From Bacteroidia bacterium (GTDB lineage: Bacteria > Bacteroidota > Bacteroidia > J057): a stretch of DNA of 64,000 bases. A program made the position numbers and the translations under genes. The notes beneath the pieces were generated by a model that saw only the letters and a list, made by a program, of their open reading frames with translations, had not been told where the DNA came from and searched no databases. Of the stretch, positions 22,495 through 31,499 are shown in pieces. Numbering within the stretch: the first letter of the stretch is position 1; each line of letters begins with the position of its first letter. The stretch lies in the NCBI GenBank assembly GCA_019695295.1, contig JAIBAH010000006.1, forward strand, positions 1 to 64,000, in the 5' to 3' direction.

Positions 22495-22548
22495 TAATTC
22501 GGAAGGGTTTAGATGGGGTGAATGGCAGACTTGACGCACTTTTTTGAA
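22495..22548. repeat. Solo copy of the array-terminal repeat (left copy)
   Basis: Positions 22513-22548 are identical over 36 bp to 30515-30550, and similarity continues a few bases on both sides (TTCGGA upstream, AG-x-CTC downstream). At the right copy this sequence directly follows the 63-bp tandem array; here it stands alone after the HAD gene. Confidence 0.8.
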
Positions 22549-29092: not shown

Positions 29093-29520
29093 TTGATTTT
29101 CTTTCTGGATTCGTACCCATTGGAAAAGGGAGAGTGTATTTTCGTTCGGTCATAAGAAGTAATAAAATCTATAAAGCTCCCAACTACAAAAACTACCCCT
29201 TCGTCCAAAGAAAACCTGTAGTGCTCAAACCGATAATCAAAAAAAAGCAAAAAACAGGTTATCAACAAGTTATATTCAGATAGCGGCAACTTTGGTTATG
29301 TATTTGAAGGGGTTTGGCCAGTCGTAAGTGCCAAGTACAGAATAAATCTCCTGGAGTTATCTTCTTCTTTGGGTTCCCGGAATTGGAGAAAGAGATACGC
29401 ATGAGGGAATATTTAAGGAAATTGGGGGGTATTGGGGTGATAGATATCCGGGGGGCTAAGGCTATGTGTGTGTTTTTAGTAATTTATTTTAATCTATTGA
29501 TAATCAATTACTTTTTAAAG
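29093..29520. other. Intergenic lead-in to the repeat array
   Basis: 428 bp after the ABC operon. Open frames (29089-29283, and the first part of 29314-29838) have no recognisable product. A TTATCAACA resembling a DnaA box is at 29259-29267 but is solitary. The stretch just before the array becomes G-rich on the plus strand. Confidence 0.4.
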
Positions 29521-29814
29521 AAAAGCATTCTCGTTGTGAATAAAAGCATAGTCATTGTTGAGAAAAGCATTATCATTGTGAGTAAAAGCATAGTCATTGT
29601 GGGAGTTTTCATTGTGATTGCGGATAAAAGCGTGGTCATTTTTGACATTTTTAGTATGGTTGTTGATTGTTTTAGTAGGGTTGTTAAGGTTTGCATTCGT
29701 GTTTTTGATGATTTCAGTGTCATTTTTATGGGTTGTATGTTGATTATTTCAGTTCTCATGATAATTTTGAGTAAAAGTGTGTTTGTTTTTAGTAATTTCA
29801 GGTTCATTGCGGGA
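29521..29814. repeat. Degenerate 21-bp tandem array (14 units)
   Basis: Fourteen consecutive 21-bp units can be laid out without gaps. Four of the first six are nearly identical, beginning AAAAGCAT and containing GTCATTGT or a variant, for example units at 29542, 29563 and 29584. Later units drift to the form TTTnnnGTnnnGTTGnTGAT. Because 21 is a multiple of 3, frames stay open on both strands and give heptad-like translations (KSIVIVx repeats on plus, TMLLLTM-like on minus). I regard these as by-products unless expression is shown. Confidence 0.75.
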
Positions 29815-29888
29815 GGGAGAATGAAGTTTGGCAGATAAAACAGCAGGGAATTTATTTTGTGATGGAGGTTTATTTAAGATTCAATGAT

Positions 29889-30519
29889 GTTTCCGGTAGC
29901 GTTGATGATGAATATTCCGGGTTTAATGGCGTTCCTGTTTGGTTGATTGATGTTTCCGGTGGCGTTGATGATGAATATTCCGGGTTTAATGGCGTTCCTG
30001 TTTGGTTTAATGATGTTTCCGGTGGCGTTGATGATGAATATTCCGGGTTTAATGGCGTTCCTGTTTGGTTTGATGAGGTTTCCGGTGGCGGTTGATGATG
30101 AATATGCTGGATTTAATGGCGTTCCTGTTTGGTTTGATGGGGTTTTCGGTGGGGTTGATGATGAATATGCTGGGTTTAATGGCGTTCCTGTTTGGTTTGA
30201 TGGGGTTTTCGGTGGGGTTGATGATGAATATGCTGGGTTTAATGGCGTTCCTGTTTGGTTTGATGAGGTTTTCGGTGGGGTTGATGATAAATGTGCTGGG
30301 TTTAGTTGCGTTCCTGTTTGGTTGGATGGGGTTTTCGGTATCCTTGATGGTGGATATTTGAATTTTGATACCATTCCTGAAGGGTTGAATGCGATTCCGG
30401 GGGATTGTAATGACGAATACTTTGGAATCGATACCGTTCCAAAAGGGTTGAATGGGGATTCCGGAAGTGTTAAAGACGGATAATTGGGCTTTGATTCCTT
30501 TTTCGGAGGTTTGAATGGG
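29889..30519. repeat. 63-bp tandem array, each unit built of three 21-bp subunits
   Basis: Ten units start at 29889, 29952, 30015, 30078, 30142, 30205, 30268, 30331, 30394 and 30457. All are 63 bp except the fourth, which has one extra G (64 bp). Units 1-4 are near-identical and start GTTTCCGG, units 5-7 start GTTTTCGG, and units 8-10 are diverged. Each splits into three 21-bp subunits with the ending G(A/G)T or GGC. The plus strand is strongly G/T-rich. Translations give a 21-residue repeat on plus (VDDEYAGFNGVPVWFDGVFGG-like), interrupted by the extra G, and uninterrupted Thr/Pro/Asn repeats on minus. Confidence 0.9.
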
Positions 30520-30550
30520 GTGAATGGCAGACTTGACGCACTTTTTTGAA
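30515..30550. repeat. 36-bp direct repeat (right copy), at the end of the array
   Basis: Identical to 22513-22548. It starts inside the last five bases of the tenth 63-bp unit and continues into unique sequence, so it behaves as a fixed terminus of the array. Confidence 0.85.
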
Positions 30551-30566
30551 CAGTCTCATGGCAATT

Positions 30567-31499
30567 TCAGCGTCTTCTTTTTTTATCCAGCAATTCTGCT
30601 GCAATGTCTGCAATCTCTTGCACTTTTCGGGCTTTTAAGATAGGGGGTTGCTTTTTGACGTCAGCCATAAGGGTTAGTTTATTAAGTAAACTTTTGCTTA
30701 AATTGAGTTCTTGCCGGGCAAGTCGCAAAAGGAAATCGTTTTTTTCGGCTTCTGTTAATTTTGCGATTAAATCCGGTAAATCAAGCATATTTTCTTTGAT
30801 ATCCTGACTAACTGTAGCTGCTGCCTGTATCCATTCCTCCGGTAAGCCTAAAAAACTGGCAAAACACTGCAAGTCAGCATTTAATTGATTTAAGCCTGCG
30901 GGGACAGGCGGTTCACTTACCTTCCTCTTTATTGCCAGAACGCGCTCTACGCCCTCTAAGTTCTCCCATTCTGATTGTTGTCCATCCTCTTGTTCATAGT
31001 AATCTTCATCAAAATAAGCCTGCGAATATTCGGAATGAAAATAAAGCCATGCTATATATAAGGCCCTATAATCTCCTTCCATAATTGCATTACGAATGCC
31101 TGTCATATCTGAAAGTATTGAACTGTCCTCTTCAATCCACTCATCATATCCTCCCTCTTCTACACTTTCACTAAAAATTAGCAATATATGGTTTTTATCG
31201 CTTTTAAGCTCAATATTATCGGAAAAAGTATAGGGAATAATGGCTTTTTTGTCAATACTGCCTAATGGAAAGCGAAAAATAAGTTTTTTTATCCCAAAAT
31301 TTGCCCAATACAGCATGGCATCAAAATACTGAAAGGTGACCTTTTCTTCATCTTGCCGAAAGTCGCCATAAGAGTATGTAAAGACGGCTTTATGGCTACT
31401 CACTTTAGCCCGGCTCGACCATTTATTGATTTCTGCCCGCTCTTCTGCTGTCAAAGCACGGTCAATGGTCTGAAATTCATATACCTGATATTCGCTCAT
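30567..31499 (-). CDS. Conserved hypothetical protein (MSEYQxYEFQ family)
   Basis: 310 residues, soluble and acidic in the middle (a YFDEDYYEQEDGQQSEWE stretch near residue 165). The opening MSEYQVYEFQTIDRALTAEE, then SSRAKVSSHKAVFTYSYGDFRQDEEK and YFDAMLYWANFGIKKLIFRFP, resembles a widespread bacterial hypothetical family that begins MSEYQYYEFQAIDRPLT and has a Y-x-WGDF motif. I recall no function, though relatives often neighbour SWIM zinc-finger genes. The C-terminal 100 residues are helical. It is probably intact and has no visible partner here. Its end lies 17 bp from the 36-bp repeat, at the edge of the accessory region. Confidence 0.6.
   Translation of the reverse strand: MSEYQVYEFQTIDRALTAEERAEINKWSSRAKVSSHKAVFTYSYGDFRQDEEKVTFQYFDAMLYWANFGIKKLIFRFPLGSIDKKAIIPYTFSDNIELKSDKNHILLIFSESVEEGGYDEWIEEDSSILSDMTGIRNAIMEGDYRALYIAWLYFHSEYSQAYFDEDYYEQEDGQQSEWENLEGVERVLAIKRKVSEPPVPAGLNQLNADLQCFASFLGLPEEWIQAAATVSQDIKENMLDLPDLIAKLTEAEKNDFLLRLARQELNLSKSLLNKLTLMADVKKQPPILKARKVQEIADIAAELLDKKRRR

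Follow-up and report, generated by a model that had tools for sequence, protein, structure and literature searches.

A dispersed intergenic module of leader, linker and 21-bp tandem repeats in a Bacteroidia genome

The paired tandem arrays described here form part of a dispersed two-part module that is present three times in the genome (4.9 Mb, 223 contigs), with the other two copies on contigs C67 and C197. At all three loci an AT-rich leader runs into a degenerate array of 21-bp units (array 1) and on to the linker AATTTATTTTGTGATGG, beyond which stands a second array of 21n-bp units that is specific to each locus. We consider the locus, with a probability of roughly 0.7, to be a non-coding intergenic satellite with a 21-bp base unit, belonging to the constant-size repeats that Subirana and Messeguer described in bacteria, in which length is constant (20-21 or 52 nt) and sequence is variable and species-specific (PMC8161180). 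Such repeats are generally non-coding and of unknown function, and 21 nt corresponds to two helical turns (PMC8161180).

Structure of the module

The window, by which we mean the whole 64,000-nucleotide stretch of DNA that was analysed, contains the following features:

29478..29520, plus strand: AT-rich leader AGTAATTTATTTTAAT...TTGATAATCAATTACTTTTT, common to the window, C67 and C197
29521..29814, plus strand: array 1, 14 degenerate 21-bp units with the consensus AAAAGCATTGTCATTGTGAGT (lag-21/42 autocorrelation, MAFFT alignment)
29849..29865, plus strand: invariant 17-bp linker AATTTATTTTGTGATGG at the junction of array 1 and array 2 (17/17 identical at the three loci)
29878..30508, plus strand: array 2, ten 63-bp higher-order units, each made of three related 21-mers (unit table, TRF, subunit test)
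30502..30560, minus strand: right edge resembling an IS end (GAGACTGTTCAAAAAAGTGCGTC on the minus strand), with a 90% copy at window positions 22498-22538

Autocorrelation against shuffles, together with TRF, recovered both arrays where an earlier note, made from the sequence alone, had seen them. Identity over 29521-29814 peaks at lag 42 (0.59) and lag 21 (0.55), the best of 500 shuffles reaching 0.42, and over 29889-30519 at lag 63 (0.78; best shuffle 0.38), while lag 7 is absent among the leading lags of the window arrays. The division of the 63-mer into three related 21-mers also held (13, 14 and 11 of 21 positions identical, a sum reached by 0 of 5000 dinucleotide shuffles), as did the strong G/T-richness of the plus strand, which amounts to 0.67-0.72 over the arrays; growth of the 21-bp unit into higher-order repeats through duplication of blocks is likewise supported. 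The count of ten units in array 2 stands, with the array now placed at 29878-30508 and the fourth unit, within about 30067-30130, measuring 64 bp rather than 63. The gradient of identity that the earlier note had described, with diverged units at the edges, applies mainly to the right end, where the units at 30320, 30383 and 30446 score 43, 35 and 37 of 63; on the left the units form a uniform sub-type (53-56 of 63). A likeness between array 1 and array 2, for which 14 of 21 identical positions had been quoted, is at chance level: no 21-base stretch of array 1 agrees with the 63-mer at more than 15 of 21 positions, shuffled array 1 gives 14.5 +/- 0.7, and 45% of shuffles do as well as the observed value. 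An origin of array 2 from array 1 is thereby left without support.

Across the three loci, 35 of 48 leader columns are identical, with weaker identity reaching to about 29460, and array 1 aligns without gaps over 270 columns (MAFFT), 175 of which are invariant. The exact 17-bp linker occurs three times in the whole genome, once per module; beyond it the loci are unrelated or nearly so (6/23 columns invariant), and the flanks of the module are unrelated among the window, C67 and C197. The C67 and C197 copies are 88% identical over about 380 bp, and the window copy is 67% identical to that of C197. Relative to the other copies, the window has 42 extra bases after array 1, equal to two unit lengths, and the units of the second array measure 63 bp in the window, 21 bp on C67 and 42 bp on C197. 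The leader motif TGATAATCAG taken alone has many other genomic sites and so is not module-specific. What is new relative to published repeats is the composite leader-array-linker-array module; a comparison that covered PMC8161180 found no description of a two-part module that is dispersed and keeps its leader and linker conserved.

Arrays of 21n units in the genome and its relatives

Arrays of 21n units occupy 11 intergenic loci (C12, C19, C25, C55, C67, C85, C88, C124, C140, C197 and the window) within 1.28 Mb of the 4.9-Mb genome, a sample that is not fully random; their density is only an estimate, because some of the sampled contigs were chosen as matches. In the same 1.28 Mb, the commonest periods of tandem arrays outside long open frames are 21, 42, 63 or 84; a period-21 array on C18 (L084), which looks coding, was left out of the census. 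The arrays sit between ordinary genes such as GlyRS, prfC and glyA (gene names assigned by eye), in no fixed orientation to them. Contig ends are a frequent location, as are sites next to IS-like ends or hairpins. The 14 arrays together comprise about 230 units, which keep 21-bp phase with one slip, and units combine into higher-order repeats of 42, 63 and 84 bp. Substitutions and duplications of blocks alter the arrays, but the 21-bp phase is almost never lost. This one length is carried by several sequence types, AAAAGCATTGTCATTGTGAGT, GGTTTGATGGGGTTT..., ATTTCYTGA and ACGCTGGGTTTGCGCTTCTGT. The core ATTTCYTGA, or close forms of it, is common to C12, C19, C85, C88, C124 and C140, about half of the loci, and at 21-bp spacing gives 58 matches on 5 contigs, with 0 for the reversed control. 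At C25 the unit sequence is unrelated and the length unchanged.

The arrays share the main defining features tested of the constant-size class (PMC8161180): a constant length of 20-21 nt, a non-coding character (no codon-position bias in array 1, frames not shared), several same-length families in one genome, and species-specific sequence, as judged from searches of relatives and congeners. The short sequence that the class shows in most repeats of a species compares with ATTTCYTGA at only about half of the loci here, and the roughly 20 or more arrays per genome given for the class compare with 11 loci in a non-random 1.28 of 4.9 Mb. The arrays differ from the published repeats in the composite three-locus module, its locus-specific second array and the 42-, 63- and 84-bp higher-order units.

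Among 60 genomes including the window's own, the 59 relatives yielded isolated 30-60-bp matches to the array 1 module and no copy of it, and 12 other members of the family lack ATTTCYTGA core arrays. C197 carries an array upstream of GlyRS; at that place the congeners G001 and G002 have none in the sequence covered (about 270 bases for G001), and one of these two is 90% identical in GlyRS. A search of 395 Bacteroidia found the core at 21-bp spacing again at three loci of G285, a member of another family, in runs of about five to six units. A core match in G059 (L186 1384-1580) is a coding coiled-coil repeat, FQETDKK as read by eye, which shows that 21-bp spacing can also be coding. The linker motif has four matches in GTDB contigs, one of them in Rhodocytophaga and the other three in unrelated phyla, a number close to the chance expectation, and none in viral contigs; plasmids, phages and viral contigs gave no match to the module. 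The array-2 core pattern had no match in the family and is uninformative, because at 3 mismatches it also missed the window's own genome; the pattern was too strict.

Several known systems resemble the locus in part. The intergenic tandem repeats of Borg elements are also fast-evolving and some are of 20-21 nt, but Borgs are extrachromosomal and archaeal, and only 14-38% of their intergenic unit lengths are divisible by three (PMC9879509). The relative G004 carries 14-, 21- and 28-bp arrays on a 7-bp unit such as GTGGGCA (L150, L151, L154), alike in bacterial family and G/T-richness; its units are multiples of 7, whereas the window arrays have no leading lag of 7. CRISPR arrays share a regular repeat spacing and an AT-rich leader, but the 21-bp units here are contiguous, without unique spacers, and match no Rfam CRISPR RNA. 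Iteron origins consist of near-identical 21-22-bp repeats beside a replication initiator gene. An origin of this kind was rejected: the neighbours of the window arrays are ABC-transporter genes and one protein without family assignment, and array 1 units are degenerate. A 310-residue protein adjoining the array (window 30567-31499, minus strand) has no Pfam or NCBIfam match, and a T9SS sorting domain encoded within the window indicates a member of the Bacteroidota.

Alternative readings

That the arrays encode heptad repeats of 7 or 21 residues, intact or decayed, is disfavoured and in our view very improbable. Twenty-one is a multiple of 3, nearly all arrays contain at least one open frame, coding repeats of 21 bp do exist elsewhere (G059, L186), and array 1 has a strong period-3 component, as coding DNA would have; an internal CATTGT doublet may account for part of this component. 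Nevertheless, mismatches between the C67 and C197 copies of array 1 are spread evenly over the codon positions (11, 10, 10), and pN is about equal to pS in its open plus frame, indicating no purifying selection. Which frame is open varies from array to array, C55 having none at all, the 64-bp unit breaks the frame of array 2, and in most other arrays period 3 ranks last or nearly last in strength among the harmonics. Searches of Pfam, PHROGs and PDB gave no support for protein coding; weak PHROG matches of a C67 frame to tail fibres have the look of low complexity. A heptad-repeat gene was accordingly rejected, and the surface-protein relic that the earlier note had entertained finds no family, no structure match and no frame under selection. 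Its other option, a DNA-level element, is preferred because substitutions fall without regard to codon position and none of the frames is conserved, and its view that neither CRISPR nor a known protein repeat explains the region agrees with the absence of any such match in our searches. An unstructured G/U-rich (or C/A-rich) repeat transcript acting as a protein or RNA sponge is unlikely. The shared AT-rich leader could hold a promoter, the RNA of array 2 folds less well than shuffles (z +4.8, from only 20 shuffles), and a protein or RNA sponge role has been proposed for the 52-nt repeats (PMC8161180). Yet promoters and terminators were not above chance in a scan of sigma-70-type sites only, Rfam returned no RNA family, folding of array 1 RNA is no better than that of shuffles (z -0.2 and -0.3), and the arrays have no fixed orientation to their neighbours.

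A mobile element carrying arrays at its ends seems about as unlikely as a sponge transcript. The dispersal of the module to three loci speaks for such an element, as do the IS-like ends that border two of the copies on the right: an IS-end-like sequence of about 40 bp, GAGACTGTTCAAAAAAGTG..., occurs twice in the window (22498-22538 and 30502-30540), and the right edge of the C197 array carries a related one (L006 3071-3090). These are putative IS ends. Against such an element, the module contains no transposase or integrase, no target duplication or common outer ends were found, and it matches no plasmid or phage. The main rival is directed only against the functional part of our explanation. 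It holds that slippage and recombination expand chance intergenic duplications into a neutral satellite whose 21-bp length reflects a preference of the machinery and no function, and we give it a little less than an even chance. It draws on the species-specificity of the arrays, which are missing from the corresponding place in congeners, on how often they occupy contig ends and adjoin IS-like ends or hairpins, and on the locus-specific sequence of array 2. It is harder to reconcile with the conservation of array 1 and linker at three dispersed loci, with all 17 bp of the linker invariant, and with the recurrence of the ATTTCYTGA core at equal spacing in the distant family of G285.

Growth of the arrays and a possible platform role

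Within the satellite reading that we prefer, unequal recombination or replication slippage may have amplified and homogenised array 2 separately at every locus, perhaps from a seed at the end of the linker, where ...GATGGGG resembles the array 2 core GATGGGGTTT. More tentatively, the arrays might provide a platform of regular phase on which a nucleoid protein or some other DNA-binding protein sits. This putative helically phased role is our preferred guess for a function, though we hold it to be less likely than not: two helical turns make up 21 bp, and the phase persists as the sequence drifts. Phase may also be inherited passively, because block duplication copies it. The curvature suggested earlier left no clear signal, the 10.5-bp AA/TT/TA periodicity being marginal (P = 0.048). 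A bolder version, in which the conserved leader, phase-locked first array and 17-bp linker repeatedly seed new locus-specific 21n arrays and several Bacteroidota families share a dedicated, phased DNA-binding protein that keeps the 21-bp phase, is improbable.

The genome offers a test case for repeats of constant length and variable sequence, with three copies, conserved ends and a locus-specific growing part, to which congeners without the module at one locus add a comparison. Because phase slips are almost absent, the idea of helical phasing can be tested directly.

Two further observations concern repeats outside the module. Near-identical hairpins, TTCCGGTAAGTG/TTCCGGAAAGTG...CACTTNCCGGAA, adjoin two 21-bp arrays (L052 482-520; L070 1978-2016), and a change in their stem is compensated. 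Period-51 repeats, equal to 17 residues, run through very long open frames (L079 591-14978; L086 1490-7142; L040 460-2265), which likely encode repetitive proteins.
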